Notes under the pieces: generated by a model
Databases searched by the model: none
What the model saw: the letters and a program-made list of their open reading frames with translations, nothing else
What the model was told of the DNA's origin: nothing
Position numbers and translations under genes: made by a program
Part shown: positions 3,410 through 57,400 of the stretch, in pieces
How positions within the stretch are numbered: position 1 is the first letter of the stretch
How the letters are laid out: every line of letters begins with the position of its first letter
Source of the DNA: Archivesica marissinica
Taxonomy: Eukaryota; Mollusca; Bivalvia; Venerida; Vesicomyidae
Assembly (NCBI GenBank): GCA_014843695.1
Contig: CM026401.1
Coordinates: forward strand, 46,823,477 to 46,887,476
Length of the DNA stretch: 64,000 bases
Reading direction: 5' to 3'

Positions 3410-6400
3410 CTGCAATGACAAAACACATTTAAATAGTTATATTCAATCATATTTACATCGCTATTGCATTTCCTTCGATTATGTCCCTTTGAATATATAG
3501 GCACCATTAACTTCTGGTGAAACTCATGAACAAAATATCAAATAACAACAAAACAACAACTGTGCAATACGCTTTTAATGGGTGGAATATAAGAAGAGAC
3601 TGATACATATGGAGTGTGTGTTTTACGTTTATTTATCGTCGCTACCGTTGCCCATATGAGCGACGCCTCATGAAGAGATTAGTCATTTTAGATGTTTTGG
3701 AGGATAGTGCAATGATACAGACAGAAACACATTCCACAGTCTCCTCTGGTTCTTATGCGTGCACGGTGTAAAGCACCGACACGAGACCTCGGTTTAATGT
3801 CCCACCTGAAAGACTGTTAATTGTATTAGGGTTAGATGGGGGATCGGACCTGCAATCCCTAGATTACCAGTCCAGTGTATTAACCACTGTAATACAGACC
3901 CGTCTGTAATATCGATACATATCGAGGAGGATACCGTGCATGAAAACTTGATAGTAACACTTCGTTTAACGGTTATGACGGTTATGACTTATACTATTAT
4001 TCTACTGAAATTTACAAACAGATAGTTGTTTATAATTGGGTGGTGGTATATTTAGGTTCATTTGCGCTAACGTGTTATGCACACATATTTCTCTATATGT
4101 GGGCTATATTTTTAGGTTTTTACACAGGGATCAGTTTAGAGGGCGATGTGGGCGAAAGTGTCGCCCTAGGGACCCTGACTTCGCCCTCTGGGGGCCCCAT
4201 TTCTCCCTAAAAAAATTAAATATTTTTTGTTTTTTACGATTTTCAAACAAAACTTTGTCTAGTAAGATACACTGGCCCATTATAAAGCACTCCTTCTATT
4301 CAAATGTTGTATTTAATGGTTGTACTGTGCATTTTAGCATTTTAACCCTATTTTGCAGACGTATATTAAAGAACACCATTTAAGGAAGCGATCACGCGCT
4401 TTCTCACTTCTCCCACAAATTCTGACCTAGAATGAACCCTGGGTTTAGCTGTATGAACCTAGAATGAACCCTGGGTTTAGCTGTATGAACCTAGAATGAA
4501 CCCTGGGTTTAGCTGTATGAACCTAGAATGAACCCTGGGTTTAGCTGTATGAACCTAGAATGAACCCTGGGTTTAGCTGTATGTCTATGAGTTGCTGTAT
4601 GTTTCACATATGGTTTTACATCCACCTCCAACAAAAATATTTTAAAATATCAAAACATATATTATGATAAAGCATACCCACAATGAGAGACATATAATCA
4701 ATGTATTGCTTAGTAATTAACTCGTTGCATGCTGGGTAAAAATATGTGTTTCTTATTTGTAACGGACATCTCTGGAAAATCTGTCATTGAATTTCATTAG
4801 AATTGTATAGATACGAAATTGCATGACATAAGTGACTGTTGTTTTCATCGCTATGGTGCAGAAAGTTAAAATCATATATAGAACTAAAATAGAATAACGT
4901 ATGTGAAATTAAAAATATTTATAGACATAAAATAGAATATGGTACGTGAAGTTAAAATAATATATAGAACTAAAATAGAATAAGGTATGTGAAATAAAAA
5001 ATATTTATAGACATAAAATAGAATATGGTACGTGAAATTAAAATTATTTATAGACAAAATAGAATATGGTACGTGAAATTAAAATTATTTATAGACATAA
5101 AATAGAATAAGGTACCTGAAATTAAAATTATTTATAGACATAAAATAGAATATGGTACGTGAAATTAAAATTATTTATAGACATAAATAGAATATGGTAC
5201 GTGAAATAAAAAATATTTATAGACATAAAATAGAATATGATACGTGAAATTAAAAATATTTATAGACATAAAATAGAATATGGTACGTGAAATTAAAATT
5301 ATTTATAGACATAAAATAGAATATGGTACGTGAAATTAAAAATATTTATAGACATAAAATAGAATATGGTACGTGAAATTAAAATTATTTATAGACATAA
5401 AATAGAATAAGGTACGTGAAATTAAAATTATTTATAGACATAAAATAGAATATGGTACGTGAAATTAAATTTATTTATAGACATAAAATAGAATATGGTA
5501 CGTGAAATTAAAATTATTTATAGACATAAAATAGAATAAGGTACCTGAAATTAAAAAAATATAGAGAACTAATATAGAATAAGGTATTTGAAGTTAAGCT
5601 CAGTTATAGACATGGAATGGCCATGATTAGGATACCTGAGGTGAATTTCCAAGCATCCGTTGATGCATATTTAATGTTCTCAGTTAGTGAACAAGGTGGT
5701 TCCTTCCAGCCGACGCAGAAATCTGTCTTTTCCTCGTCTAGAATATCGTAAGTGCCGTAACACAATGTGTTACCGATATATGGAATGTTGCATGTACCTG
5801 AAAATGATCCGATATATTTACTATTAAAGCTTAAAGCGACACTACATCAGTGAAAACACAAATTTCTACGGAATGTATTTTCTCTATTATATGGTATAAT
5901 TTTGTTCCAAATATTTGCCTCAAATACTGAGTATTTCAACTAATAAACAACCGTCGTATACGCGGTTTGTTGACATAACACAATAATGTAAACATCCATG
6001 CGTAATACAACTAGTGTATCCTGAATAATACGATTTATGGTACTGATTTACCGTTATATCTACTATTTGTGCCTATTTATTTGTAGACTATTCTTAGTTC
6101 ACTTATTTCAAAACGACATTATCTCGCGCTTAGCATTGATTCCGATGACAAACAAACGTCAAGGAGCATGGATCACCGTTATATGAAATCCTACTTTAAA
6201 TCCACAAAATCACTGTTTATTGATTCAATGTTAGTGTTCGAATGTATTCGGAAGAATTTGTAGTAGCAATGCATTTATACGTGAACAATGTATTGTATTT
6301 GCTTTTTGCGATGTAATGTCGCTTTAAAACATTATTTATTTCAGTGTTTTACATGTACATAAGAGAATTGACATTTTACATATAAATTAACAGCAATAGA

Positions 6401-12400: not shown

Positions 12401-15400
12401 ATAAATAAGAGTTACATTTTTTGAGAACATTGTCAGTATGCTTATCCCAGGATAGTGTGTTGTCAATCATAACTCCGAGTAGTCGTTCAGCAGAACTCGG
12501 ACGTATGACGGTGTTGTTCACTTTCACTTCAAGAGCAGACTCACTGATACTATGAGCTTTTGATTTAGAGGAAATATACATGATTTTGGTCTTAGAAATA
12601 TTGAGAATCATACGATTGTCTAAACACTACTGTTGAACATTTATCAAATCAGTAGATAAAGAAGTAGTAAGAGTGTCAAGAGATTGATCGGAGGCAGATA
12701 TAGTTGTATCGTCAGAAAATATGTCTGCAACTGTGCTGGTAAGAGTCATAGGTAAGTCATTGATGTAAATTATAAAGAGAATGGGACCTAAGACAGACCC
12801 CTGAGGAACACCAGAAACAACAGGTCCAGCATCAGAACGAGCACCAGAAACATTCGTTTGTTGGAACCTGTCAGCTAAGTACGGATATAGATATATGATA
12901 TGGTTTGTATCGAACCCGATTCGATATGGCGACATCGCCTAGTAATTATAAATATAGTCTACATCCGTTATGTCGAATTTCGTCGGACCGAACAAAATGC
13001 TTCGACATAACCGACGTTTGACTTAACGTAATTAGATATAAACGGAGCCAGTTATATGTAAAATGAAACGCGACTTGATCATATTTCCAGATAACCGCAG
13101 AATTTGACATATGTATGTTCAATTAATGTCAAACCCCTTGCGGGGACCTATACATATTTTCCTGGGCAGGCTTAGCCGACCTAAGTGGTTAACCAGTACT
13201 AAGCAATGTGTGTGAGGTGCCTTGCTTAATGACACTACATACATGGCCTGGCCGAGTATCGAACCGGGACCGTTCGATTCCACTGGACCACGGACGCCAC
13301 ACAAATAACCGGACATAACCGATTTGACATTATAACGGCTACAGTCTGTATATCAGCTTTACCACTAGGTCATTGCAGCAACCTCAACCAAAGTTCTGCA
13401 TATAACGTGTGTGTTTTAGGTTTATTTATCGTCGCTACCGGATGTACATATGAGCGACGCCTCCTGAAGAGAATAGTCATTTTATATTGTTGGAGGATAG
13501 TACAATGATACAGACAGAGACCCATTCCAGAATCTTCCCTGATAGTTTTACGCGCACGATGTAAAGCACCGACACGAGACCTCGGTTTAAAGTCCCATCT
13601 GAAAGACTGTTAACTTTATTAGGGTCAGACGGTGGATCGAACCTGCGATCTCTGGAGTTCCTGTCCACCGTGTTAATAAGATGATACATGAACGTATGAA
13701 TAGTAATACTATATGGTTATTATAGTTTGCTCCAAATACTGTAAACATCAGGGGACCGATTAGGGATTTTGTTGAGTGTATATAGGTGAGCAGCAACACT
13801 GTAACATCATTGCGTATATTCTTTTATTCTTTATAATTATGCTAACGAACATTTGGCTTTTAAGTTTAGTTTAAGCTTTATTTATTTTACAAACGATTGC
13901 GAAACAAGTTTTAACAACTTATATTAATCACTATCGTTGGCGCGGGTGAAAGCGTATGTGGTCATTCATGTGGGAGGAAACCGGAGTACCCTGAGAAAAC
14001 CCACCTGTCCGATCTGGCGACCACCGTACCATCTCACATACTTCCCGGTCCGAGGAGAAGCGAGCGCGCTAACCACCGCGCTAATCGGACAGCCTAAACA
14101 GTTGGCTGCATTGAAAGAACTCTTTCTCCCCGCTACATGTACACTACTTTCAACTGATATATTAAACAATAGTTCATCTTACCATTAGAGGGTCAATTAA
14201 CAGCATGGATTCGAACAAGGACATCAGCAATGTGGTCAGCCATTCCTCGGACTTCTGTTTTCCCCACTCCATGCTGTATAGCAGTATGAAGAACGCAGGC
14301 ACCAAAGTTCCAATGAGGACGATCATCCATGCGATGTAAATACACCTGGCAAAATTACTCAATATATTAAAGCGACACTACATCGGTGTAAACGCAAATG
14401 ACTGCAGAATGTAATTTGCTATTATGTGGTATAAATGTTTTCCAAATATTTGCCTAAAAAACTGAGTATTTCAACAAATAAACAAACGTCTTATATGCGG
14501 TTTGTTGATATAACAAAATAATGTAAATAGGGTCGACATTCGTGCGTAATACAACTCGTGTATCCTGAATAACACGAAGTATGGTACATATTTACCGTGA
14601 TATCTAACATGTGTGCCTATACATATTTATTTGTAGACTAATCTTAGTTAAATTATCTCTTATCGAAAGTATCGCGTGTGTAGTATTGACTCCAATAACA
14701 AACAAACGTCATGCGGTGCGGATGACCGTTATATGAAATCCTACGTTCACTTTTGAAAGTTTGTATACCACAACAAAAACACTGTTTATTGACTCAATGT
14801 TAGTGTTCGAATGTATTCAGAAGAATGTGTAGTAGCTATGCATTCATAGGCGAACAAATGCAGTTTATTTGCTTTTTGAAATGTAATGTCGCTTTAATAT
14901 TTCTAACATTATTATTAATCAATATTTTTTGTTCATAATTTCTACATATTTATATACTAGACGACATAGAAAACGCACACTTCGGGTAAGTGTGTTTTTA
15001 CATGAAAACACAATAACTACAGTAAAACCTGTGTTAGTGGTCACCTCCATTTAACAGCCAACCTGTATTAAGCAGCCAGTTTCTAAATTCCCACTATGCT
15101 GTTTTACTACACATTTCACCTCTATTAAGCAGCCACCTGTGCTAAGCAGCCACTTTCCGGGATTCCCTTGGCTGGCTGCTTAAGACAGGTTTCACTGTAT
15201 TTACCAATCAGCACTACAATATATGATTGAATCATTGACAATCCATGTCTCTGGATTTAATAACATTTATTTCCGTAAAATGCTATTTCGTTTAACTCTT
15301 TCACCGCTAATGTCGCATAAAAGCGACTTTGTAAAAAAGTAGAAAACCCGATTAGACAAAACAGAACATGCCGTCTGATCAGGCTATATGCTGATTGCTC

Positions 15401-18400
15401 TTCAGATAGTGGAGCTGAAGCACTGTCCGAATAGCAAACAACATAGATCCTGATCAGACGCGGCGTTACGCCGCGGCTGATCTGGATCTATGTTGTTTGC
15501 ACATCCTCTGAATTTATTCGGCGCTGAAATTCATACTTATCTAATCGCATTTATTTTACAAAACCTAATATTACCTTATCTGAACTTACCTTACACATCT
15601 TACATTTTATTTTACCGACCCTAATAATTTATTACCTTATCTTAACTTACCCAATATTACATTATCTTACCTAATTTACATTACCTTATTTTACCTTGCC
15701 TTATAGTACCATAATATGTTACCTTGCATTAGTTTTAACTTTCAGCGCCGAATGAATTCAGAGCATGTGCAAACAACACAGACCCAGATCAGCCGCGGCA
15801 TAATGCCGCGTCTAAGCTCCACTATCTGAAGATAAATCAGCATATTGCATGATCAGACGGCACGTTCTGTTCTGTCTGATCGGGTTCTCTGCATGTTTGC
15901 AAAGTCGCTTTTATGAGACATTGGTGGTGAAAGAGTTAAGGATCAGTTAACTAGTGAATATAGCTTGAATAACAATATGCATTGTTGGTGTTGATTCTGT
16001 GTTTCTTTTTAACCCTTTCCTGCATAGAGATTTAGGTTAATATACTATTATATCTCCATACAAACGACAGCCATTTAACCCTTTCCTGCATAGAGATTTA
16101 GGTTAATATACTATTATATCTGCATACAAACGACAGGCATTTAACCCTTTCCTGCATAGAGATTTAGGTTAATATACTATTATATCTGCATACAAACGAC
16201 AGCCATTTAACTCTTTCCTGCATAGAGATTTAGGTTAATATACTATTATATCTCCATACAAACGACAGCCATTTAACCCTTTCCTGCATAGAGATTTAGG
16301 TTAATATACTATTATATCTGCATACAAACGACAGCCATTTAACCCTTTCCTGCATAGAGATTTAGGTTAATATACTATTATATCTGCATACAAACGACAG
16401 CCATTTAGCTATCATGCAGTGGATAAGTAGTCGCCATATCTATCCCACCTCCATATATATTACTGGGACTACATGAGATTCTGGCCTTTATTATAAGCAT
16501 TGATTTGGCTACTACATTGTCAATGTATGTCGTATTGGTAATGGCGTCAAGAGGTGCTTCTATGAGGGAAATGGTTTATGATCATTGGTTTGGCTGCTAC
16601 ATTGTCAATGTATGTCGTATTGGTAATGGCGTCAAGAGGTGCTTCTATGAGGGAAAGGGTTTATGAACATTGGTTTGGCTGCTACATTGTCAATGTATGT
16701 CGTATTGGTAATGGCGTCAAGAGGTGCTTCTATGAGGGAAAGGGTTTATGAACATTGGTTTGGCTGCTACATTGTCAATGTATGTCGTATTGGTAATGGC
16801 GTCAAGAGGTGCTTCTATGAGGGAAAGGGTTTATGAACATTGGTTTGGCTGCTACATTGTCAATGTATGTCGTATTGGTAATGGCGTCAAGAGGTGCTTC
16901 TATGCGGGAAAGGGTTAATTATCGTAGTATTTACCAATGCGGAAGGTTGAAGCCACTGTTGAAGTCTGGTACATCTGGAGAGATAACATTGGCTCTCAAT
17001 GCTTCCTCATACTCGCTCTCGCCTCTTATACAATGGCTCTTAAAGACGTTGCAACACACGCACCTACTAATGCAGCGATTACAACATGCACTCCTTGGCA
17101 CGTCTGTTCGACGCTTGGTCCGTTTGAAGAGGAATATAAGCAGCATGGTTGGAGGAGCCGTTAACAGGGCGCATATGAAGGAAACATATATCTGTGGTAT
17201 GAAATGTTTATTATTTAGTAAATATCTTGATATGTAATATTTGACTAACAAACGGAACATAATTTAACTCTTTCAGCGCCGAATAAATTCAGAGGATGTG
17301 CAAACAACATAGATCCAGATCAGCCGCGGCGTAACGCCGCGTCTGATCAGGATCTATGTTGTTTGCTATTCGGACATGTGCTTCAGCTCCACTGTCTGAA
17401 GAGCAATCAGCATATAGCCTGATCAGACGGCATGTTCTGTTCTGTCTGATCGGGTTCTCTACTTTTTTTACAAAGTCGCTTTTATGCGACATTGGCGGTG
17501 AAAGAGTTAAAGAACATACATAACTATGCTGACGTGTATCTGGTTTTCTTGTTAATTAATTGATTGAAGATCCCGTTTCATATGGTATTTGTAACCATGT
17601 TTTATTGTTTTTTTGTTTTGTTTTTAAACTTTATTTATTTTACAACGATTGTGAAGCAAGTTTTAACAACTTATATTAACCACTCTCGTTGGCGCGGATG
17701 AAAGCGTATATGTGGTCATTCGTGTGGGAGGAAACCGGAATACCCGGAGCAAACCACCTGTTCGATATGGCGACCACCGTGACATCTCATATACGATTAT
17801 CGGAACACGGGTTGCATTGGTGAGAAGCGAGCGCGCTAACCACTGCGCTAAATCGGACAGCCATTTTTATGGAAAGGGTTGCCTTGATCCTAGCTGTGCA
17901 AAAGCCATGTAGGAAAGCGGTAACCAATCAAGATGCATTCGTGGCCTAGTGGTTAAGACATCCGCCTACGGAGCGGAAGGTCGAAAGTTCGAACCTTGCC
18001 AGGGATTCGTTCTGATATGGCCGGTTGGTGTCTTTATGGAAATGGTAGTCTTTATCCTAGTTGTGCGAAAGGTTGTAACAAAGCCACGTAGGAAAATGGT
18101 AACCATACAAGACGTATCATTGGCCTAGTAAGACACCCGCCTACGGAGCCGAACGTCGAAGGTTCGAACCTTGTCAGGGGTTCATTTTAATATCGCCGGT
18201 TGGTGAGCCACCAGTTAGTTAACTCTTTACACGATAGAAAATACCAGTCAAATATATCGTAACATTGCATTATCCTCCAAATATGGCGTAACATTGCATT
18301 ATCCTCCAAATATGTCGTAACATTGCATTATCCTCCAAATATCTTAAATCACCAATCTGTTCAGGTGGCGTCTCTCATACGGGCAACCGGTAGCGACGAT

Positions 18401-21400: not shown

Positions 21401-24400
21401 ATAATGTAGGTATGCGTTTTATATGTTCCATGGCTAAATGTTATACCTAGACGGTTCTAACGTCGACTTCCATGTAATACTTAAATAGTCTTGGGTTAAT
21501 ACCACTAAATCTTGTAAGGAAGACCACAATAACATATACCTCATACTATTCACCCGGAGACAGGGCTCGTTGTGGTGATTTCAACGCAAATACAAATTTA
21601 TGTTCACTCGATTGCGAAACAAGTTCTTACAACTTATATTATTCACTCTCGAGACGCCATTCGTGGTGGAATCCATCGCCACGAGGGAGAGAGAAGAGGC
21701 AATGTGGTAGTTCAATACACTGCCCAAGGACACACTCGTAACGGCTACAGCTAGGCGTGAACACCGGGCTTTAAGTTTATACAAATTTATTTTCGCTCGA
21801 TTACGAAACAAGTTCTTACAATTGATATTAATCACTCGCGAGACCGCATTCCTGATCGAATCGATCGCCACGAGGGAGAGAGAAGAGGCAATGTGGTATT
21901 TAAATGCTTTGTCTAAGGGCACAATCGTGACAGCTCCAGCTCGGTTCGAACTCCATGCATTTCGCATCTGAAGCGAATGCGCTATCACGATTTGTGTTCT
22001 ATTTGGGTCCGACTGTCCGACTATCGCAGTGGTTAGCAATCTAGATTCTCACCAATGCAACCCGGGTTCTATCCCTGGAATGTGTGGTATGTGAGATTAC
22101 TATTACTATTCTCCCACACCTCTGACAAACATAATAATACGCTTTCATCTGTGCCAACGAGAGTGATTAATATAAGCTGTTAAAGCTTGTGTTACAATCG
22201 GTGTAAAATAAATAAAGTGTATACTTTTATTTGAGTCAATATGTTTTAAGCCCCTAAGTCACCAGTACCTCTCTGACACCATCAAACAATTCTCGTGGTC
22301 CTGTATCCTCGTATTCCCCCATCAGCACAAAGGCAACTCGAGACCGAGTACAAGCGTCACGTCTCATTCCCGTCAGTACCTTGATGATATAGTATTCTCT
22401 GTCCACTATTAAGTTGTCACGAAGTGGCGTAATGCCCCACTGAAATAGCAGTCACGTGAATAACACATGCATGGTAGGTGATCGATAGGTCATTCATTGC
22501 ATCATCGATGACCTATCACTGTTCTCATCGTGAAATAATGTGTGATTGGTAGGGGTGTATATCACAGTGTACATGTATGTGAGAGGCCGACGAGATCTGT
22601 AGTCCAGTGATAACACGCTGGACTGGTAATCCAGGGATCGCAGGTTCGATCCCCCGTCTCAGTATATACAAATATTTCAGATGGGACATTAAACCGAGGT
22701 CTCGTGTCGGTGTTTTACACCGTGTACGTAAAAGAACCAGAGGAGATTCTGGAATTGGTCTATGTCTGTATCATTGCACTATCCTCCAACAATCTAAAAT
22801 GACTAATCTCTTCAGGAGGCGTCGCACATATGGGCAACGGTAGCGACGATAAATAAACGTAAAACACACAGTGTACAGGTATGTGAGAGGTGAAGATGTT
22901 AGGGTCTCTAACTTAAAATCACTTGCCCATTCACCGCTAGTGTGTCGAATTGTTTCATGTGCGGAAGCTGTAGGTCTGTGTTTCTATCCGTGTGTTCGTA
23001 CGTGCCTGCAATATTGCTATGAGGGGTGTCCGGGGTCTTCCTCCACCAGTAATAGCTGGAGAGTCGCCATATGATCTAATCTGTTGTTCTGACTTAAACC
23101 TCAAATACAAGCAAGCAGACAGGTCTGCGGGAGCATTGCATAATGAATTGTTATAGATGGACCTGTAGTCCAGTAGTTAACACGTTGGACTGGTAATCCA
23201 GGTAACGCAGGTTCGATCCCCCGCCTGACCCTAATAAAATTAACAGTCTTTCAACTGGGACTTTAAAACCGAGGTCTCGTGTCGGTGCTCTACACCGTGC
23301 ACGTAAAAGAACAAGAGGAGACTCTGGAATGGGTCTCTCTCTGTATCATTGCACAATCCTTCAAAAATCTAAAATGACTAATCTCTTCAGGAGGCATCGC
23401 TCATATGGGCAACCGGTAGCGACGATAAATAAACGTAAAGCACACACAAATGTAGCACAACCCACTTGGTTGTTTTCGATTAAGTTGTTTAATGATATGA
23501 AACTAATCTCGACAACACATTGTCCAAACTGCTCTCCATGTATTTAATAGCACGTATGCTTGTAATGTAATGAATGAAAAACATATTATAATATATTAGA
23601 TAAAACAACATTTTAATGACCTGGATGCGTTAAAATAAATAGAGCAAGAAACCTTCAATAGATCCATTCTGTCCCGTCCAGCAAGGTAGATGACCGCAAT
23701 GACATAGATGAGAAAAATAGCACAGAATGTGCCCATGACAGCAGCTTGGCTCAGCGGAGAGAACTTCAAGAATACGGTTGAAAAATCAATGGAGTTTGGT
23801 GCAATAAAGAAAGAATTGGAAAACACCATGTCTGTGATATCATAACAGTGACATGATATCTTGTTCTCCCGTGACTTCCACTCAAGCTGAAAGGAGGAAA
23901 GTCTTACAATTACCATGAATAAAAGTATTAACTAAAATATAAAAATTGATAAAATCACTCCTAGTACTAGCCGTTTGTAATACACTAGCAAGAGACGGTT
24001 CTGTATTCCAGTGGTAACACACTGGACTGGCAATCCAGGGATCGCAGGTTCGGCCGCCGTCTGACCGTAATAAAATTAACAGTTTTTCAGATGGGGACAT
24101 TAAACCGAGGTCTAGTGCCGGTGCTGTACATCGTGCACGTAAAAGAACCAGATGAGTCTCTGGAATGGGTCTCTGTCTGTATCATTGCACTATCCTCCAA
24201 TTATCTAAAATGACAAATCTCTTCAGGAGGCGTCGCTCAAATTGGGCAACCGGTGTAGACGATAAATAAATGTAAAACACACACATAAACTAGCATAGGA
24301 AATATCCGTTAATACATAAGGTCATTTCAAATACAAACTCTTAAATTCGCTGCACTGCACCCCTTTGAGAAACACATTTTCTTACATTTATTAAATCCAA

Positions 24401-27400
24401 TCACACCGACATCGCATGTACTGTACCCACCTCACATGTACCGTACCCACCTCACATGTACCGTACTCAACCCCCATGTACCGTACCCACCTCCCATGTA
24501 CCGTACTCACCTCCCATGTACCGTACCCACCTCCCATGTACCGTACTCACCTCACATGTACTGTACCCACCTCACATGTACCGTACTCACCTCACATGTA
24601 CCGTACCCACCTCCCATGTACCGTACTCACCTCACATGAACCGTACTCACCTCACATGTACCATACTCACCTCACATGTACCGTACTCACATCCCATGTA
24701 CCGTACCCACCTCCCATGTACCGTACCCACCTCCCATGTACCGTACTCACCTCCCATGTACCGTACCCACCTCCCATGTACCGTACTCACCTCCCATGTA
24801 CCGTACTCACCTCACCTCACATGTACCGTACCCACCTCCCATGTACCGTACTCACCTCACCTCACATGTACCGTACTCACCTCACATGTACCGTACTCAC
24901 CTCACCTCACATGTACCGTACTCACCTCACCTCACATGTACCGTACTCACCTCACATGTACCGTACTCACCTCACCTCACATGTACCGTACTCACCTCAC
25001 CTCACATGTACTGTACTCACCTCACATGTACAGTACTCACCTCACATGTACCGTACTCACCTCACCTCACATGTACCGTACCCACCTCCCATGTACAGTA
25101 CTCACCTCCCATGTACAGTACTCACCTCCCATGTACCGTACCCACCTCACACGTACCATACTCACCTCCCATGTACCGTACCCAGCTCACACGTACCATA
25201 CTCACCTCCCATGTATCGTACCCACCTCACATGTACCATACCCACCTCACATGTACCGTACTCACCTCACATGTACCGTACTCACCTCACATGTACCGTA
25301 CTCACCTCACATGTACCGTACTCACCTCACATGTACCGTACTCACCTCACATGTACCGTACCCACCTCACATGTACCGTACCCAACTCACATGTACCGTA
25401 CCACCTCACATTTACCGTACCCACCTCCCATGTACCGTACCACCTCACATGTACCGTACTCACCTCACATGTACCGTACTCACCTCACATGTACCGTACT
25501 CACCTCACATGTACCGTACTCACCTCACATGTACCGTACTCACCTCACATGTACCGTACCCACCTCACATGTACCGTACCCAACTCACATGTACCGTACT
25601 CACCTCACATGTACCGTACCCACCTCACATGTACCGTACTCACCTCACATGTACCGTACCACCTCACATGTACCGTACTCACCTCACATGTACCGTACCC
25701 ACCTCCCATATACCGTACTCACCTCCCATGTACCGTACTCACCTCACATGTACCGTACTCACCTCACATGTACCGTACTCACCTCACATGTACCGTACCC
25801 ACCTCCCATATACCGTACTCACCTCCCATGTACCGTACTCACCTCACATGTACCGTACTCACCTCACATGTACCGTACTCACCTCACATGTACCGTACTC
25901 ACCTCCCATGTACCATACCCACCTCCCATGTACCGTACCCACCTCACATTTCCGTACTCACCTCCCATGTACCGTACTCACCTCCCATGTACCGTACTCA
26001 CCTCACATATACCGTACCCACCTCCCATGTACCGTACCCACCTCACCTCCCATGTACCGTACCCACCTCACCTCACATGTACTGTACTCACCTCACATGT
26101 ACCGTACTCACCCCACATGTACCGTACTCACCTCACATGTACCGTACTCACCTCACATGTACCGTACTCACCTCACATGTACCATACCCACCTCACATGT
26201 ACCGTACTCACCTCACATGTACTTTACTCACCTCACATGTACCGTACTCACCTCACATGTACCATACCCACCTCACATGTACCTTACCCACCTCGCATGT
26301 ACAGTAACCACCTCACATGTACTATACCCACCTCACATGTACCGTACCCACCTCCCATGTACCGTACTCACCTCACATGTACCGTACCCACCTCACATGT
26401 ACCGTACCCACCTCACATGTACCGTACTCACCTCACATGTACCGTACTCACCTCCCATGTACCGTACTCACCTCACCTCACATGTACCGTACCCACCTCC
26501 CATGTACCGTACTCACCTCACATGTACCGTACTCACCTCCCATGTACCGTACTCACCTCCCATGTACCGTACTCACCTCACATGTACCGTATCACCTCAC
26601 ATGTACCGTACTCACCTCACATATACCTTACCCACCTCCCATGTACCGTATCACCTCACATGTACAGTACCCACCTCACATGTACCGTACCCACCTCACA
26701 TGTACCGTACTCACCTCACATGTATCGTACCCACCTCACATGTACCGTACTCACCTCACCTCCCATGTACCGTACTCACCTCACATGTACCGTACCCACC
26801 TCACATGTACCGTACTCCCTCCCATGTACCATACCCACCTCCCATGTACCGTACTCACCTCACATGTACCGTACTCACCTCACATGTACCGTACCCACCT
26901 CACATGTACCATACCTACCTCACATGTACAGTACCCACCTCACATGTACCATACTCAACTCACATGTACCGTACCCACCTCACATGTACAGTACCCACCT
27001 CACATGTACCGTACTCACCTCACATGTACCGTACTCACCTCACCTCACATGTACCGTACCCACCTCCCATGTACCGTACTCATCTCCCATGTACCGTACT
27101 CACCTCACCTCACATGTACCGTACCCATTTCCCATGTACCGTACTCATCTCCCATGTACCGTACTCACATCACATGTACCGTACTCACCTCCAATGTACN
27201 NNNNNNNNNNNNNNNNNNNNNNNNNNNNNNNNNNNNNNNNNNNNNNNNNNNNNNNNNNNNNNNNNNNNNNNNNNNNNNNNNNNNNNNNNNNNNNNNNNNN
27301 NNNNNNNNNNNNNNNNNNNNNNNNNNNNNNNNNNNNNNNNNNNNNNNNNNNNNNNNNNNNNNNNNNNNNNNNNNNNNNNNNNNNNNNNNNNNNNNNNNNN

Positions 27401-30400
27401 NNNNNNNNNNNNNNNNNNNNNNNNNNNNNNNNNNNNNNNNNNNNNNNNNNNNNNNNNNNNNNNNNNNNNNNNNNNNNNNNNNNNNNNNNNNNNNNNNNNN
27501 NNNNNNNNNNNNNNNNNNNNNNNNNNNNNNNNNNNNNNNNNNNNNNNNNNNNNNNNNNNNNNNNNNNNNNNNNNNNNNNNNNNNNNNNNNNNNNNNNNNN
27601 NNNNNNNNNNNNNNNNNNNNNNNNNNNNNNNNNNNNNNNNNNNNNNNNNNNNNNNNNNNNNNNNNNNNNNNNNNNNNNNNNNNNNNNNNNNNNNNNNNNN
27701 NNNNNNNNNNNNNNNNNNNNNNNNNNNNNNNNNNNNNNNNNNNNNNNNNNNNNNNNNNNNNNNNNNNNNNNNNNNNNNNNNNNNNNNNNNNNNNNNNNNN
27801 NNNNNNNNNNNNNNNNNNNNNNNNNNNNNNNNNNNNNNNNNNNNNNNNNNNNNNNNNNNNNNNNNNNNNNNNNNNNNNNNNNNNNNNNNNNNNNNNNNNN
27901 NNNNNNNNNNNNNNNNNNNNNNNNNNNNNNNNNNNNNNNNNNNNNNNNNNNNNNNNNNNNNNNNNNNNNNNNNNNNNNNNNNNNNNNNNNNNNNNNNNNN
28001 NNNNNNNNNNNNNNNNNNNNNNNNNNNNNNNNNNNNNNNNNNNNNNNNNNNNNNNNNNNNNNNNNNNNNNNNNNNNNNNNNNNNNNNNNNNNNNNNNNNN
28101 NNNNNNNNNNNNNNNNNNNNNNNNNNNNNNNNNNNNNNNNNNNNNNNNNNNNNNNNNNNNNNNNNNNNNNNNNNNNNNNNNNNNNNNNNNNNNNNNNNNT
28201 CACCTCACATGTACCGTACCCACCTCCCATGTACAGTACTCACCTCCCATGTACAGTACTCACCTCCCATGTACCGTACCCACCTCACACGTACCATACT
28301 CACCTCCCATGTACCGTACCCAGCTCACACGTACCATACTCACCTCCCATGTATCGTACCCACCTCACATGTACCATACCCACCTCACATGTACCGTACT
28401 CACCTCACATGTACCGTACACCTCACATGTACCGTACTCACCTTACATGTACCGTACCCACCTCACATGTACCGTACCCACCTCACATGTACCGCACTCA
28501 CCTCACATGTACCATACCCACCTCACATGTACCTTACCGACATCGCATGTACTGTACCCACCTCACATGTACCGTACCCACCTCACATGTACCGTACTCA
28601 ACCCCCATGTACCGTACCCACCTCCCATGTACCGTACTCACCTCCCATGTACCGTACCCACCTCCCATGTACCGTACTCACCTCACATGTACTGTACCCA
28701 CCTCACATGTACCGTACTCACCTCACATGTACCGTACCCACCTCACATGTACCGTACCCACCTCACATGTACCGTACTCACCTCACATGTACCGTCTCAC
28801 CTCCCATGTACCGTACTCAACTCACCTCACATGTACGTACCAACTCACATGTACCGTACCCACCTCCATGTACCGTACTCACCTCACATGTACCGTACTC
28901 ACCTCCATGTACCGTACTCACCTCACATGTACCGTACTCACCTCACATGTACCGTACTCACCTCACATGTACCGTACTCACCTCACATGTACCGTACTCA
29001 CCTCACATGTACCGTACTCACCTTACATGTACTGTGCCCACCTCACATGTACCGTACCCACCTCACATGTACCGTACTCAACCCCCATGTACCGTACCCA
29101 CCTCCCATGTACCGTACTCACCTCACATGTACCGTACCCACTTCACATGTACTGTACCCACCTCACATGTACCGTACTCACCTCACATGTACCGTACCCA
29201 CCTCCCATGTACCGTACTCACCTCACATGAACCGTACTCACCTCACATGTACCATACTCACCTCACATGTACCGTACTCACATCCCATGTACCGTACTCA
29301 CCTCCCATGTACCATACCCACCTCCCATGTACCGTACCCACCTCACATTTACCGTACTCACCTCCCATGTACCGTACTCACCTCCCATGTACCGTACTCA
29401 CCTCACATATACCGTACCCACCTCCCATGTACCGTACCCACCTCACCTCCCATGTACCGTACCCACCTCACCTCACATGTACTGTACTCACCTCACATGT
29501 ACCGTACTCACCCCACATGTACCGTACTCACCTCACATGTACCGTACTCACCTCACATGTACCGTACTCACCTCACATGTACCATACCCACCTCACATGT
29601 ACCGTACTCACCTCACATGTACTTTACTCACCTCACATGTACCGTACTCACCTCACATGTACCATACCCACCTCACATGTACCTTACCCACCTCGCATGT
29701 ACAGTAACCACCTCACATGTACTATACCCACCTCACATGTACCGTACCCACCTCCCATGTACCGTACTCACCTCACATGTACAGTACCCACCTCACATGT
29801 ACCGTACCCACCTCACATGTACCGTACTCACCTCACATGTACCGTACTCACCTCCCATGTACCGTACTCACCTCACATGTACCGTACTCACCTCACCTCA
29901 CATGTACCGTACCCAACTCACATGTACCGTACCCACCTCCCATGTACCGTACTCACCTCACATGTACCGTACTCACCTCCCATGTACCGTACTCACCTCC
30001 CATGTACCGTACTCACCTCACATGTACCGTATTCACCTCACATGTACCGTACTCACCTCACATATACCTTACCCACCTCCCATGTACCGTACTCACCTCA
30101 CATGTACAGTACCCACCTCACATGTACCGTACCCACCTCACATGTACCGTACTCACCTCACATGTATCGTACCCACCTCACATGTACCGTACTCACCTCA
30201 CCTCCCATGTACCGTACTCACCTCACATGTACCGTACCCACCTCACATGTACCGTACTCACCTCCCATGTACCATACCCACCTCCCATGTACCGTACTCA
30301 CCTCAATGTACCGTACTCACCTCACATGTACCGTACCCACCTCACATGTACCATACCTACCTCACATGTACAGTACCCACCTCACATGTACCATACTCAA

Positions 30401-33400
30401 CTCACATGTACCGTACCCACCTCACATGTACAGTACCCACCTCACATGTACCGTACTCACCTCACATGTACCGTACTCACCTCACCTCACATGTACCGTA
30501 CCCACCTCCCATGTACCGTACTCATCTCCCATGTACCGTACTCACCTCACCTCACATGTACCGTACCCATTTCCCATGTACCGTACTCATCTCCCATGTA
30601 CCGTACTCACATCACATGTACCGTACTCACCTCCAATGTACCATACCCACCTCCCATGTACCGTACTCACCTCCCATGTACCATACCCACCTCCCATGTA
30701 CCATAACCACCTCCCATGTACCGTACTCACCTCACATGTACCGTACTCACCTCCCATGTACCGTACTCACCTCCCATGTACCATACCCACCTCCCATGTA
30801 CCGTACCCACCTCACATGTACCGTACTCACCTCCCACGTACCGTACTCACCTCCCATGTACCGTACTCACCTCAAATGTACAGTACCCACCTCCCATGTA
30901 CCGTACCCACCTCACCTCCCATGTACCGTACCCACCTCACCTCACATGTACCGTACTCACCTCACATGTACCGTACTCACCTCACATGTACCGTACTCAC
31001 CTCACATTACCGTACTCACCTCACATGTACCGTACCCACCTCACATGTACCGTACCCACCTCCCATGTACCGTACTCACCTCACATGTACCGTACTCACC
31101 TCAAAATGTACCGTACCCACCTCACATGTACCGTACTCACCTCACATGTACCGTACTCACCTCACATGTACAGTACTCACCTCCCATGTACCGTACCCAC
31201 CTCCCATGTACCGTACCCACCTCCCATGTACCGTACTCACCTCCCATGTACCGTACTCACCTCACCTCACATGTACCGTACCCACCTCACATGTACCGTG
31301 CTCACCTCACCTCACATGTACCGTACTCACCTCACATGTACCGTACTCACCTCCCATGTACCGTACTCACCTCCAATGTACCGTACTCACCTCACATGTA
31401 CCGTACCCACCTCACATGTACAGTACCCACCTCACATGTACCGTGCCCACCTCACATGTACAGTACCCACCTCACATGTACAGTACCCACCTCACATGTA
31501 CCGTGCCCACCTCACATGTACAGTACCCACCTCGCATGTACAGTACCCACCTCACATTTACCGTACTCACCTCGCATGTACCGTATCCACCTCACATGTA
31601 CCGTACTCACCTCACATGTACCGTACCCACCTCACATGTACCGTAAACACCTCACATGTACCGTACTCACCTCACATGTAACGTACTCACCTCCCACGTA
31701 CAGTACCCACCTCACATGTACCGTACTCACCTCACATGTACCGTACTCACCTCCCATGTACCGTACTCACCTCACCTCACATGTACCGTACCCACCTCCC
31801 ATGTACCGTACTCACCTCCCATGTACCGTACTCACCTCACCTCACATGTACCGTACCCACCTCCCATGTACCGTACTCACCTCCATGTACCGTACTCACC
31901 TCACCTCACATGTACCGTACTCACCTCCCATGTACCATACCACCTCCCATGTACCGTACTCACCTCCCATGTACCATACCCACATCCCATGTACCATACC
32001 CACCTCCCATGTACCGTACTCACCTCCCATGTACCATACCCACATCCCATGTACCATACCCACCTCCCATGTACCGTACTCACCTCACATGTACCGTACT
32101 CACCTCCCATGTACCGTACTCACCTCCCATGTACCATACCCACCTCCCATGTACCGTACCCACCTCACATGTACCGTACTCACCTCCCATGTACCGTACT
32201 CACCTCCCATGTACCGTACTCACCTCACATGTACCGTACCCATCTCCCATGTACCGTACCCACCGCACCTCCCATGTACCGTACCCACCTCACCTCACAT
32301 GTACCGTACTCACCTCACATGTACCGTACTCACCTCACATGTACCGTACTCACCTCACATGTACCGTACTCACCTCACATGCACCGTACTCACCTCACAT
32401 GTACCATACCCACCTCACATGTACCGTACTCACCTCACATGTACCGTACTCACCTCACATGTACCGTACTCACCTCACATGTACCGTACTCACCTCACAT
32501 GTACCGTACTCACCTCACATGTACCGTACTCACCTCACATGTACCGTACTCACCTCACATGTACCGTACCCACCTCACATGTACCGTACTCACCTCACAT
32601 GTACCGTACTCACCTCACATGTACCATACCCACCTCCCATGTACCGTACTCACCTCACATGTACAGTACCCACCTCACATATACCGTACCCACTTCACAT
32701 GTACCGTACTCACCTCACATGTACCGTACCCACCTCCCATGTACCGTACTCACCTCACATGTACCGTACTCACCTCACATGTACCGTACCCACCTCACAT
32801 GTACCGTACCCACCTCACATGTACAGTACCCACCTCACATGTACAGTACCCACCTCACATGTACTGTACTCACCTCACATGTACCGTACCCACCTTGTTC
32901 GGTGTTTGATTTCAATAGCTTTTTCGTCCCGTAATTGCCTCATATTGTTCGGTGTATCATTTCAATAGCTTTTCCTCCCGTACTTACCGCGCATTGTTCG
33001 GTGTTTCATTTCAATAGCTTTTTCGTCCCGTACTTACCTCACATTGTTCGGTGTTTCATTTCAATAGCTTTTTCGTCCCGTACTTACCTCATATTGTTCG
33101 GTGTTTCATTTCAATAGCTTTTTCGTCCCGTACTTATCTCACATTGTTCGCTGTTTCATTTCGATAGCTTTTTCGTCCCGTACTTACCTCACATTGTTCG
33201 CTGTTTCATTTCAATAGCTTTTTCGTCCCGTACTTACCTCACATTGTTCGGTGTTTCATTCAATAGCTTTTTCGTCCGTACTTACCTCTTTGTTCGGTGT
33301 TTCATTTCAATAGCTTTTTCGTCCCGTACTTATCTCACATTGTTCGCTGTTTCATTTCGATAGCTTTTTCGTCCCGTACTTACCTCACATTGTTCGCTGT

Positions 33401-36400
33401 TTCATTTCAATAGCTTTTTCGTCCCGTACTTACCTCACATTGTTCGGTGTTTCATTTCAATAGCTTTTTCGTCCCGTACTTACCTCATATTGTTCGGTGT
33501 TTCATTTCAATAGCTTTTTCGTCCCGTACTTATCTCACTTTGTTCGGTGTTTCATTTCAATAGCTTTTTCGTCCCGTACTTACCTCACATTGTTCGCTGT
33601 TTCATTTCGATAGCTTTTTCGTCCCGTACTTACCTCATATTGCTCGGTGTTTCATTTCGATAGCTTTTTCGTCCCGTACTTACCTCACATTGTTCGGTGT
33701 TTCATTTCAATAGATTTATGGCCCGTACTTACCTAGTATTGTTCGGTGTTTCATTTCGATAGCTTTTTCAAAGTGAACTTACCTCACATCTGTCTGTATG
33801 CCATTTGGTTGCTTCTTCTTCCCAAGTAAGACATCCCATCGTAGCAATGGTCAGATTATACTGAAAAGTTTTCTCTGAAAAGGTCATCGCAAGTTCATGT
33901 TCAAATGAAATACCTACAGTATGTGCAATGGGTACTTATTTGTAAAACAATGCTATCAGTTAATTAACACGATTTTGATAATTCACATTTATCATACCGC
34001 AACATATGGTTAGGGAACAACAGTAAAAACAAAGGATTCTAACTAAAAGGACCTATTCACATTTTGTAATAAATCAGACTTTATCTGCCAAGGGAGGTAA
34101 TAGAAAATTGAATGGATTAATATACTCACTGGATCCCGGTAAATGAACGGCCATGTATGTGAGTCCGGAATGGCCTGCCAGTTGAATCGGATGCACGCAT
34201 GTTTCCCAGAATTCATCCTGATGAAGATTTACCGTCAGATCGAAGTCAATAATAGATGGCGGTCCTGAGAATTTAATATACACCAAATATTCGGAAAAGA
34301 TAATGTCACCAATGGGTGTGACAATTAAACAGACGTTGTCCGTGCTTGTCTTGTACAGAAACTTGTGATACATGAACTCTGACGCATCTTCCTCGTCTAC
34401 AGAAGGTATTACTAATTCGGCTTCTGGCGTAACGACAGTTTGTTCGAAGGTCATAGATCGCGGAGTAATACGTTTCTTCTCCACTGTTTGTACGTCGATA
34501 TAAAGAACCGGAGACGTTACAGTGCTTGAGGTTCCGTCCGCGTCATAGCTAAAGACGTTCTTCTCAAATTCCAAACCCTGAATTAAAAAGAGCTATGTGA
34601 TAGTTTAAACTTTATTTATTTTAAAACGATTGCGAAACAAGCTTTAACAACTTATATTAATCACTCTTGTTGGCGCCGATGAAAGCGTAAATGTGGTCAT
34701 TCGTGTGGTAGGAAACCGGAGTACCCGGAGAAAACCCACCTGTCCGATCTGGTGATCTCCGTACCATCTCACATTCTTTCCGGTCCGAGGATCGAATCCG
34801 GTTGCATAGGTGAGAAGCGAGCGAGCTAACCACTGCGCTAATCGGACAGGTATCCCAGCAAACATTTGACGTTGTATAGACGTTGCATAGACGTCAGACC
34901 CCAACGTTGGATAGACGTTAGATAGTGGTTGTTTTTGCAAACTGGATATACGTCAGAATACCAACGTTTATCCAACGTCAGAGATCCAACTACTTTCCAA
35001 CGTTGGATTTACGTTGGATATTGGTCACCAAAATCATGACCAAATCCCAACGTTGATCCAACGTCGTAACAACGTTGTAACCTGACGTTGTATGGATGTC
35101 GGGGGTCCGACGTTGGATATACGTTGGATAATGGTCACCGACGTCGCGATCAAATTCCAACGTTGACCCAACGTCCATAAGTACGTTCTAGTCTGACGTT
35201 GTATGGATTTCGGGAATCCGACGTTGGATAATGGTCACCAAAATCACAACCAAATTCCAACGTTGATCCAACCTCGTAACAACGTTGTAACCTGACGTTG
35301 TATGGATGTCGGGAATCCGACGTTGGATAGACGTTGGATAATGGTCACCAAAATCACGACCAAATCCCAAAGTTGATCCAACGTCGTAACAACGTTGTAA
35401 CCTGACGTTGTATGGATGTCGGGGGTCCGACGTTGGATAGACGTTGGATAATGGTCACCGACGTCGCGACCAAATTCCAACGTTGATCCAACGTTGGTAT
35501 GACGTCAGGTGTTTGTTGGGTATGTGAGAGTAATTTGATGTTTGAACGCATAAATATTATCCAATCGGCATGCTATGACAATTGTTCTCGGAATTATTGT
35601 ATTGATGTAATAGATTGTTATATTTAGCTTATACAAATTTATATTAGCTCGATTGTGAAACAAGTTATTACAACTTATATTAATCACTATCGACACCTCA
35701 TCCCTGATGGAATCCATCGCTACGATGGAGAGAAAAGAGGCAACGTGGAATCTAAATACATAAGGGCACACTCGTAACAGCTCCAGTGGGGCTCGAACAT
35801 CGGGACTTTCGCAAAGAAGCAAACGCGCTATAACTGCGCTATCACGACTTCCACTAAGTGTGATATTTACTACGAACACATGTACTGACTTGCTTGTGGA
35901 ATGTGGTTCTATATGGATGCTATCAAGTGCATGGAGGACTGAGAGGTTGGGGGGGGGGGTCATCCAGAGTGTATACGACCGTGCTCGTACAATGAATGTC
36001 CATGTCCTTGCAGAATATATTATCTCCGCATTTCTTGTATATCATATTCGAACTCAACAGGAAAAGCTTAAAACAATATATTAAATATTTGAGTCAATAA
36101 ATGCCCGTTTTTCAATAACTCAGGCAGGGCTCATTCTAGGTCAGATGTTTTGGGAGCAGTGAGAAAGCACGCGCGCGATTGCGTCCATACATAATGATAT
36201 TTAATAAATGTCTGCAAAATAGGGTTAAAATACACAGTATGACCATTAAATACAACATTTGAATAGAAGTACTTTATAATGGGCCAATGTATCTTACTAG
36301 GAACATTTTGTATGTAAATTGTAAAAAAAGACATTTTTATTTTAGGGAGAAGTGGGGTTCCAAGGGGGGCGAAGTCAGGGTTCATAGGGCGACTATTTCG

Positions 36401-54400: not shown

Positions 54401-57400
54401 AGATGTTACTTTGGAAATGTTATTGGTGATGTTTATTGTCAAGCAGATATTTTCAGATGGCAATACTTGTTTATACATTTTCCCCCTTCGGGCCCCAACA
54501 AAGGGGAACCCCATTTATTTGCTCCATCCAGTGACTAATAGGGGTCAGAGCACACCCACTAGTAGCCTTACATGCTTCATATAAAGTTATCAACATACTA
54601 TGTATGAAAGGTATAGTTATTATGGTTCATCAATGTTCTGACATTTATATATTGATAACATATATATAGTCTACATCTGTTATGTCAAAGTCGGTTATGC
54701 CGAATTATCCGGTTATCTCGAAGTCGGATTAAAGTCCCGTTTCAGTCAACCTTCGGTTATGTCGAAGAATGTTGTTCGGTCCGACATAATTCGACATAAC
54801 GGATGTAGACTGTATAATAATTATATTATATATAATTGTTTATACTTGCCACAATATCAGTAATTATAAATTCGTCATAGTTCTTAAATATGTCGACTGC
54901 ACGGATTTGTAATGACGTCTTGTAACCATTATTGGGATCTCCCGCTTTCAGCATCATATTAAACGTTCGATCTCCTACAAAGTAAATGCTAAATATGTAT
55001 TCGTATGTACCTGGATCTATCTCCACAAATGAGAGCCAGAGAGCCGCAATATGACCTAAGCTGTTGGCGCGACTTTAAACCCACAACACAAACGAAGCGA
55101 ATGCATCTATTACCGGGGTAACATGTGAATGGTGCCCAGTAAAGCAAGATTACTAATACGATTAAAAGGCGTTACCAATGACAACAACTAGTGGGTCTTT
55201 GAATATCATTAAATAAGCGGAAAAACAGAGCTCATTGCATGATATTGAAAAGAACGATGAATCCACTGCAGACACATTGCATGTGTTTTACGTTTATTAA
55301 TCGTCGCTACCGGTTGCCCATATGAGCGACGCCTCCTGAAGAGATTAGTAATTTTATATTTTACCAGTGGTAACACGCTGGACTGATAATCCAGGGATCG
55401 CAGGTTCGATCCCTCGTCTGACCCTAATACAATTAACAGTCTTTCAGATGGGACGTTAAACCGAGGTCTCATGTCGGTGCTTTACACCGTGCACGTAAAA
55501 GAACCAGAGGAGACTCTGTAATGGGTCTCTGTCTGTATCATTGCACTATCCTCCAAAATCTAAAATGACTAATTTCGGTAGGAGGCGTCGCTCATATGGG
55601 TAACCGGTAGCGACGATCAATAAACGTAAAAAAAACAAACACACACACACACCACTCTTTCAAGACATATATCTGTTCGTGCTTAGTTGTACAGTATGGT
55701 AAGCAAGATCGATGAAAAGTAGTTATTAATTTGCAATAAACCGGAATTAAGCAGCCGTCTGTGCTAAGCAGCCACTTTCTGCGAGTCCCTTATGTCAGGT
55801 TTGAACTGTATATCTTATATACATACGTGATTCTATGACTGGTTCATCATATACCACTGCTCCTGTCGTATGCTGCCTCACAACGAACGATAGTAGGGGA
55901 TTAGCGTCTGCCTCCGGGTCCCTTACTTTCCTATTGTCATTTCCCAGCCATGTCATACAAGTAACTGATAGCCATTCTTTTGCAGAAATGACTGAAAATA
56001 TGTGTTTGTATGTAGCGTCAAAAGTAAGAAATACTCACTGAAAGAGACTGGCGTCAAAACGTTAGAATGATATAGAATACCATTGACTTTCAAATCGTAG
56101 TCAATTTGTATAAAATCGCATTCGAAAATTGGACATTGTGTGAATTTTAATTAATTTAAGACTGAGATATTGAGAACTATAACACAATTTCATGAACTCC
56201 TGAACATATACTGGTGAACTATTAACGTGGAAGTCGTGATAGCCCTGTGATCTCTCTCTTTATAGAGATATAGTTAATTGCTACAAGGAATATATATATA
56301 TATATCTACGTTATGGAGAACAGACATTTCTATTTCCATACCCGTATCCATGGCAGCGTTGCAGTCATCGTCATCAGTGATATAGTTCACTGCTACATGG
56401 AATATATATATCTACGTTATGGAGAACAAACATTTATATTTCCATACCCGTATCCATGGCAGCGCTGCAGTCATCGTCATCAGTGATATAGTTCACTGCT
56501 ACATGGAATATATATATCTACGTTATGGAGAACAGACATTTCTATTTCCATACCCGTATCCATGGCAGCGCTGCAATCATCGTCATCAGTGATATAGTTC
56601 ACTGCTACATGGAATATATGTATCTACGTTATGGAGAACAGACATTTCTATTTCCATACCCGTATACATGACAGCGTTGCAGTCATCTTCACCAGGGATA
56701 CAGTTAACTGCTACAAGGAATATATATATATATATCTACGTTATGGAGAACAGACATTTCTATTTCCATACCCGTATACATGACAGCGTTGCAGTCATCG
56801 TCATCAGTGATATAGTTCACTGCTACATGTAATATATATATATATATATCTACGTTATGGAGAACAAACATTTCTATTTCCATACCCGTATCCATGGCAG
56901 CGTTGCAGTCACCATCATAAGGGATACAGTTCACTGCTACATGGAATATATGTATCTACGTTATGGAGAACAGACATTTCTATTTCCATACCCGTATCCA
57001 TGGCAGCGCTGCAGTCATCTTCACCAGGGCTATAGTTCACTGCTACATGGAATATATGTATCTACGTTATGGAGAACACACATTTCTATTTCCATACCCG
57101 TATCCATGGCAGCGTTGCAGTCATCTTCACCAGGGATACAGTTAACTGCTACAAGTAATATGTGTATCTACGTTATTGAGAACACACATTTCTATTTCCA
57201 TACCCGTATCCATGGCAGCGTTGCAGTCACCATCATAAGGGATAAAGTTCACGGTTCGAACAATATCCGCCTGTGACGTAGTGTATTCGGGAACAGAAAC
57301 TTGTACAATGATTCGGTAAGTATAACCTTGGTTCACGGAGGACTTGGGTATTATGATCGTAGACTGGTTGTACCCTAAAATGAGAATCATCCACAGACTA

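Follow-up and report, generated by a model that had tools for sequence, protein, structure and literature searches.

A minisatellite of several hundred donor-like sites, probably born from an exon–intron junction, in a polycystin-1-like gene of the clam Archivesica marissinica

Introduction

How does an intron come to carry several hundred copies of a 5' splice site behind a single real one, and how can the transcript still yield an intact protein? This question is raised by a 64,000-nucleotide stretch of the genome of the vesicomyid bivalve Archivesica marissinica (GenBank assembly GCA_014843695.1, contig CM026401.1, positions 46,823,477 to 46,887,476 of the forward strand), to which we refer as the window. 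It lies on contig 16 (C16) of the 1.54-Gb genome, and its minus strand contains a polycystin-1-like gene whose intron 14 is largely made up of a tandem array. Positions without a contig name are those of the window. An earlier reading of the sequence alone had proposed that the array arose by expansion of the exon 14 donor, and had offered several functions for it. Our analysis makes it very probable that the array is a minisatellite born from the junction between exon 14 and intron 14, that it is tolerated by the gene, and that the first donor is the one in use.

Results

The gene was identified by strong Pfam matches to Polycystin_dom and PKD_channel at 3428-2262 and by REJ similarity at 63675-62992, a weak match (E 4.1e-5, 22.8 bits) that narrowly missed the curated cut-off of 25. 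Its nearest protein neighbours are those of other bivalves, namely Mya arenaria, Dreissena polymorpha, and Ruditapes philippinarum, with 54-59% identity across 57% of the query. Exon 14 (33783..33874, minus strand, with an inferred 5' boundary) encodes the first half of the GPS motif and was recognized from bivalve homologues, the corresponding exon of a paralogue, and a weak Pfam GPS match that extends across exons 14 and 15 (E 0.0021, 19 bits) and does not reach the curated cut-off of 22.5. Exon 15 (23653..23886, minus strand) comprises 234 bp or 78 codons, is in phase 0 at both ends, and encodes the second half of the GPS motif as well as the first transmembrane stretch. The 3' end of exon 14 reads ACAGATGTGAG^GTAAGTTCAC (ATGTGAG^GTAAGT; the caret marks the exon–intron border), with the first intron base at 33782. 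At the protein level, exon 14 ends with KWHTDRCE and exon 15 starts with LEWKS, and the Mya, Dreissena, and Ruditapes homologues are contiguous here, without any insertion. The donor was therefore placed at 33782 and the acceptor directly before 23886, and exon 14 is presumably spliced to exon 15 from this position. The true 5' splice site is thus GTAAGT at 33777..33782 on the minus strand (GAG^GTAAGTTCAC), and intron 14 measures 9896 bp, including 1000 N at 27200-28199. The donor of exon 15, GTTTCT, looks weak, and the loss of this exon would leave the reading frame intact.

From 33782 down to 24415, the exon 14/intron 14 junction is tandemly copied, in units of approximately 50 bp and then in units of 20 bp. 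Wrap-around alignment, in which the longer units cover 33787-32897, resolved 18 of them (32895..33789, minus strand), each comprising the exon end and the donor (ATGTGAG^GTAAGTACGGG..), followed on the same strand by a proximal block of ~231 20-bp units of the type GTGAG^GTGAGTACGGTACAT (28200..32894) and a distal block of ~137 units (24415..27199). The two blocks flank the assembly gap of 1000 N, which makes the array length a lower bound; the 368 sequenced 20-bp units bring the array to at least 386 units in all. The 18 and approximately 370 units given in the sequence-only reading match these numbers. Among the 50-bp units, the first two and the last one are the most divergent, as in edge copies, and the middle ones are close to the consensus. 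Four of the 18 have lost the donor GT, three at +1G and one at +2T. The units show many scattered substitutions and length variants, and an additional TGAGG extends some of the 20-bp units to 25 bp. The long plus-strand reading frames across the array were considered and set aside as probably non-coding: they are expected of a 20-bp period that is free of stops in all three frames, and they run antisense to the gene.

The array opens with the genuine junction: its first unit includes seven exonic bases, which encode a GPS cysteine retained in the bivalve homologues. Aligned with the beginning of the 50-bp unit, the 20-bp consensus, GTGAGGTGAGTACGGTACAT, is identical at 14 of 15 positions, a match equalled by none of 2000 shuffles, and the last 50-bp copy runs in register into the first 20-bp copy, with the switch at ~32895. 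The 20-bp unit thus looks like a 50-bp unit that lacks 30 bp internally. For a genome-wide search (1.54 Gb), we used chosen pieces of the two units. All 77 exact matches of a 26-mer from the 20-bp unit fell within this array, and all 13 matches of a 35-mer from the 50-bp unit, with up to two mismatches allowed, fell at this locus. A dispersed satellite, an introner, or a transposon was rejected on these grounds, as the pieces have no copies elsewhere.

Intron 14 is common to two paralogues in the same genome, at C16:2.1 Mb and C8:47.49 Mb. The intron of the C16 paralogue (~2.5 kb, donor GAA^GTGAGT) has no array at its donor; Tandem Repeats Finder (TRF) reported only short small-unit repeats near the acceptor. 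The window array is therefore probably younger than the intron that contains it. In the C8 paralogue, a 69-bp × 157 array begins 28 bp past the donor ACA^GTAAGT. A junction origin of that array was ruled out, as its unit lacks the exon end and the array begins within the intron. Pieces of the window units at a single locus, together with paralogous introns that have either no array at the donor or an unrelated one, argue that the array grew locally from the junction. This is the origin that the sequence-only reading had put forward, and it is supported.

The array supplies the intron with consensus-like donors in one direction only, several hundred of them, as had been claimed. Within the intron, the motif AGGTRAGT was counted 203 times on the sense strand and never in the antisense direction; the remainder of the window contains two copies on the minus and one on the plus strand. 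The sense strand of the intron also contains 349 GTRRGT sites, namely the true donor and 348 others that are all located within the array. Scoring by U1 pairing energy gave -10.7 kcal/mol for the true donor, -12.1 kcal/mol for the 50-bp consensus, and -12.2 and -11.4 kcal/mol for the two main types of 20-bp unit. When the 348 downstream GTRRGT sites are compared with the true donor, pairing is stronger for 332, equal for one, and weaker for 15, so that 333 are at least as strong. A total of 224 sense GT sites reached -12 kcal/mol or lower, versus 8, 12, and 15 in three first-order Markov shuffles of the array. No antisense GT site of the array reached -12 kcal/mol or even -6 kcal/mol. Among the 349 GTRRGT sites, only with the true donor does the reading frame continue from exon 14 into exon 15. 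All 348 downstream sites would truncate the protein because an in-frame TGA lies a few codons past the junction.

Donor columns were no better conserved than the rest of the unit, and we saw no sign of selection on the donor copies. The averages cover the 50-bp part and the proximal 20-bp block. In the former, mean conservation was 0.958 for donor columns versus 0.948 for the others; in the latter, it was 0.929 versus 0.944, or 0.979 versus 0.969 when two bimodal columns were left aside. Poly(A) signals are scarce: the sense intron contains one AATAAA versus ~12 expected and no ATTAAA versus ~5 expected from the density in the window, values that are slightly too high since the 1000 N were treated as sequence. 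There would thus be little premature polyadenylation to suppress. The sense strand is purine-rich, and the unit shows no pyrimidine tract ahead of its AG (GTACATGTGAG^GT).

The array is not a singular oddity, as the same anatomy was found elsewhere in this genome and in print. We compared 39 exons of the three polycystin genes, mostly defined by homology, with the TRF arrays around them. The window exons at 5803-5636 and 3428-2262 were defined by reading frame and Pfam; some exons may have been missed, which makes the expected value below somewhat too low, and several donors are uncertain (e.g., 48610, 39658, 18780, 6532, and 2262). Arrays are present in 25 of 35 introns. When arrays of at least 2.5 copies and at least 60 bp were re-placed at random within their own introns, the array nearest the donor was expected to begin no more than 30 bp from it in 1.06 of the 25 array-bearing introns. 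We observed nine, a number reached in none of 20,000 simulations, versus two in the same test on the acceptor side. Four of the nine arrays merely adjoin the donor and are not derived from it; they include that of C8 intron 14 and, on the minus strand of the window, arrays at 4861..5613 (43 bp × ~17.6), starting 22 bp into the intron after the exon that ends at 5636, and at 16491..16916 (85 bp × 5), starting 18 bp into the intron after the exon that ends at 16935.

Other arrays do contain the junction. The same gene has a second junction-spanning array at its REJ-region exon (56267..57252, minus strand), whose ~106-bp units take in ~49 exonic nucleotides and give nine copies of GATACGG^GTATGG; the donor is at 57203, in the same phase as in the paralogue. 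In the C16 paralogue, the junction CATTCG^GTGAGT at about 2,081,247 (minus strand) is repeated in a 40-bp × ~71 array that includes exonic bases, with 61 exact copies of the 12-mer. Its unit reads CATTCG^GTGAGTAGTTAATGCGTGC..., and most of the ~71 copies hold a strong donor. In the C8 paralogue, an exon end at about 47.499 Mb (GGTGTAAGGGAG / GATGGTGTAAGGGAG) recurs in a 26-bp × ~8 array whose copies repeat the exonic bases and have mostly lost the donor GT. The C16 paralogue has a further array of 90 bp × 7.6 at about 2.101 Mb. Its unit begins anew at the donor hexamer GTATGG, of which there are eight copies, and shares no exonic bases.

A second gene family was examined through the dynein AAA_6 domain. 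The family search gave 99 exon matches, of which 59 donor stretches were sampled; the first 40 were mostly clean-frame matches, picked before their sequence was seen, and in a few stretches the donor sits away from the end of the match. An array started within 60 bp of the donor in seven of the 59 stretches (L054, L055, L060, L068, L078, L083, with an uncertain donor, and L089), with a low-complexity case (L085) left out of this count. If arrays are assumed to be as dense as in the window, where a looser filter gave 36 arrays in 64 kb, approximately 2.0 were expected (P 0.0044). Within the stretches themselves, the contrast is weak, with seven array starts at 0-60 bp versus two at 60-120 bp. 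One of the seven arrays spans its junction: at C10:60387364-60388000 (L078, L080), a 64-bp unit repeats the end of a dynein heavy-chain exon, KLIDHPTWTLKLIQ^GTAAGC (CATACAG^GTAAGC), including 42 exonic nucleotides and at least four donors.

One acceptor-side case was also seen among the dynein genes. At C18:64594400-64594860 (L081), the exon start is present three times at ~110 bp, and acceptor-like sequence, TTTATTTCAG, precedes the later copies. This locus lies outside the 59-stretch sample and was picked because the match list showed repeated matches.

Discussion

The data are best explained by the following course of events. A segment that combined ~7 bases of the exon end with the 5' splice site and ~43 bases of intron would have been duplicated in tandem, giving rise to the ~18 copies of the 50-bp unit. 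An internal loss of 30 bp may then have shortened one of these to 20 bp, and slippage or unequal exchange would have multiplied the shorter unit until at least 368 copies were present. A consensus-like donor is found in most of the copies. The spliceosome would pair exon 14 with the first, upstream donor and remove all downstream copies as part of the intron, leaving the protein intact, and the choice of any copy would lead to a premature stop. If the upstream donor is indeed used in this way, the gene most likely tolerates the array, without selection for it. Leakage may nevertheless occur, as at the human ABCA7 array discussed below, in the form of rare use of a copy and a degree of skipping of exon 15, which is in frame. 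Skipping of exon 15 is predicted to be the likeliest side effect.

Several other explanations deserve consideration. The donor-like motif might be a coincidence, with an unrelated satellite or mobile element having landed beside the donor. The window is indeed full of minisatellites (51 TRF rows), and the unrelated 69-bp array of the C8 paralogue lies close to its own donor. Nevertheless, the homology takes in exonic bases in register with the junction, and the pieces of both units match this locus only. This explanation is already contradicted, and we regard it as very unlikely. The array might also be false or grossly mis-sized, and an assembly gap of 1000 N does lie within it. Scattered substitutions and length variants are unlike the product of a looped assembly, however, and arrays built in the same way are present on C8, on C10, and at a second place on C16. 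An assembly artefact is very unlikely. A third view takes the AG^GT copies for dual-specific or recursive splice sites that permit stepwise intron removal or micro-exon isoforms. AGGT within tandem repeats can act as a 5' or a 3' site (PMC10809524), and the intron contains 203 copies of AG^GTRAGT. The missing pyrimidine tract speaks against this view, as does the stop that exon 14 meets when extended to any of the 348 copies, and it has scarcely any probability.

The two remaining explanations ascribe an effect to the array. It has been suggested that an RNA of this kind could bind many U1 small nuclear ribonucleoproteins (snRNPs); a U1 platform maintained by selection would protect the transcript from premature cleavage and polyadenylation (telescripting) or flag the long intron as a target of processing. 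The number of strong sense sites and the lack of antisense ones would suit such a role. The donor columns are not specially conserved, however, donor bases have been lost in four of the 18 50-bp units, and there is hardly a poly(A) signal to silence; a selected U1 sponge is therefore unlikely, and strongly so, as the C16:2.1-Mb paralogue also manages without an array at its donor. Alternatively, the array may lengthen the distance between exons 14 and 15 and tie up splicing factors, which would cause skipping of exon 15 in proportion to array length. Exon 19 of ABCA7 provides a precedent, with skipping that grows with the length of a variable-number tandem repeat (VNTR) at the donor (PMC5954066), and exon 15 with its phase 0-0, its 234 bp, and its weak-looking donor would be a suitable target. 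Skipping would, however, delete conserved GPS and membrane sequence, and the precedent comes from another lineage and another gene. We consider length-dependent skipping possible but rather doubtful. Taken as a whole, the sequence-only reading was right about the border origin, and its functional ideas gained no support from the tests that we ran.

Some observations weigh against a tolerated minisatellite that was born from the junction and whose first donor is used. The use of the first donor at exon 14 is an inference, and the true donor is outpaired by 332 of the 348 downstream GTRRGT sites; strength alone would therefore not select it. The array-free paralogue is a duplicate gene and not an orthologue from a related species, so that an array may have been lost there. 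The order in which 50-bp units were followed by 20-bp units is based on similarity and position, not on an outgroup. In the whole genome, spaced AGGTRAGT triplets numbered 20,455, versus 17,521 for the reversed motif, in a crude count of overlapping matches. The ratio is 1.17-fold, and strong-donor arrays as a class are therefore not clearly in excess.

The last of these observations also counts against a wider proposal, namely that minisatellites have repeatedly arisen at exon–intron junctions, and at 5' splice sites in particular, in this bivalve lineage. Donor-side duplications would be tolerated, as the first donor wins, or would be made more often, and polycystin intron 14 would be an extreme product of the process. 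The proposal is suggested by the nine of 25 polycystin introns with a donor-proximal array (1.06 expected, two on the acceptor side) and by the seven of 59 dynein donors, one of them spanned by its array. With the small genome-wide excess on the other side, we judge the chances of this proposal to be even. If the donor-side bias were genome-wide, it would bear on the origin of long introns and new splice sites and give the disease-linked ABCA7 repeat a counterpart in an animal. The pattern of recurrence deserves a proper genome-wide test. Apart from these considerations, the first places listed by triplet count include a long array of 21-24 bp units with AGGTAAGT at C1:8078350-8081033.

By its anatomy, the clam array is of the same kind as two known systems. 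Tandem repeats that span exon–intron borders were named mirages in amphioxus, where either boundary can be duplicated (PMC3087553). Those of Branchiostoma Adh3, globin, troponin C, and PGBD5 are described as minisatellites whose units span the boundary and contain splice signals. The clam units likewise span the border with exonic bases and carry splice signals; the coding exon is unchanged, and the extra copies are intronic. Regular splicing appears to be undisturbed by mirages, as suggested by the reverse transcription PCR data on globin and the data on Adh3 given in PMC3087553, and a statement in the PGBD5 paper has it that the Adh and troponin C mirages yield no aberrant mRNAs (PMC3902484). 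The globin mirages consist of few units, six and three in the two BflGb6 haplotypes documented (PMC3087553), versus at least 386 in the clam, which moreover belongs to another phylum and shows a second-stage 20-bp unit.

The second system is the VNTR in intron 18 of human ABCA7, which lies at the exon 18 donor. Its 25-bp unit begins with the donor GT as its first two bases, and ~12 to ~427 units, or up to 10.7 kb, are reported (PMC5954066). According to the splicing results in the same source, skipping of exon 19 increases 3-4 fold with length, and retention of one unit, which causes a frameshift, amounts to ~2% independently of length. As in ABCA7, the clam array lies directly at the exon, and the working donor would be part of its first unit, judging from the frame and the homologues. 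The ABCA7 unit starts at the GT, whereas the clam unit includes seven exonic bases; it is in ABCA7 that an effect on splicing was measured. The host gene and the unit length differ as well; judged from these two features, the likeness is one of analogy, not of common descent.

Splice sites can also be created or multiplied when AGGT-type exon borders are duplicated in tandem, with intron gain, as in the potato RdRp gene and human internal tandem repeats (PMC2812944, PMC4974935). The clam gene differs in that no new intron is seen; the intron is one that the paralogues also have, and every extra copy is located within it. Intronic minisatellites of C. elegans (PMC4039745) and intron gain by repeat expansion in Cryptococcus (PMC2395259) were set aside as comparisons. 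In our searches of open-licence PMC papers, junction repeats were met for lancelets and human genes and none for a mollusc. The clam array thus places junction minisatellites in a mollusc, in another gene, at a large size, and with an added short-unit stage, and it shows that they recur across genes. With hundreds of near-identical strong donors past one true donor, it offers a natural test of upstream-site choice and of the decoy load that an intron can bear.

Other features of the loci

At 49613-51590, the window contains a 45-bp × 44 array whose period is a multiple of three and which is open in several frames. On the minus strand at 12018-12938, open segments resemble a fragment of a non-LTR reverse transcriptase. 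Around the C8 paralogue (~47.45-47.50 Mb), the 69-bp array of intron 14 occupies 10.8 kb, and ~34.6 kb of merged arrays end ~0.75 kb before exon 14.

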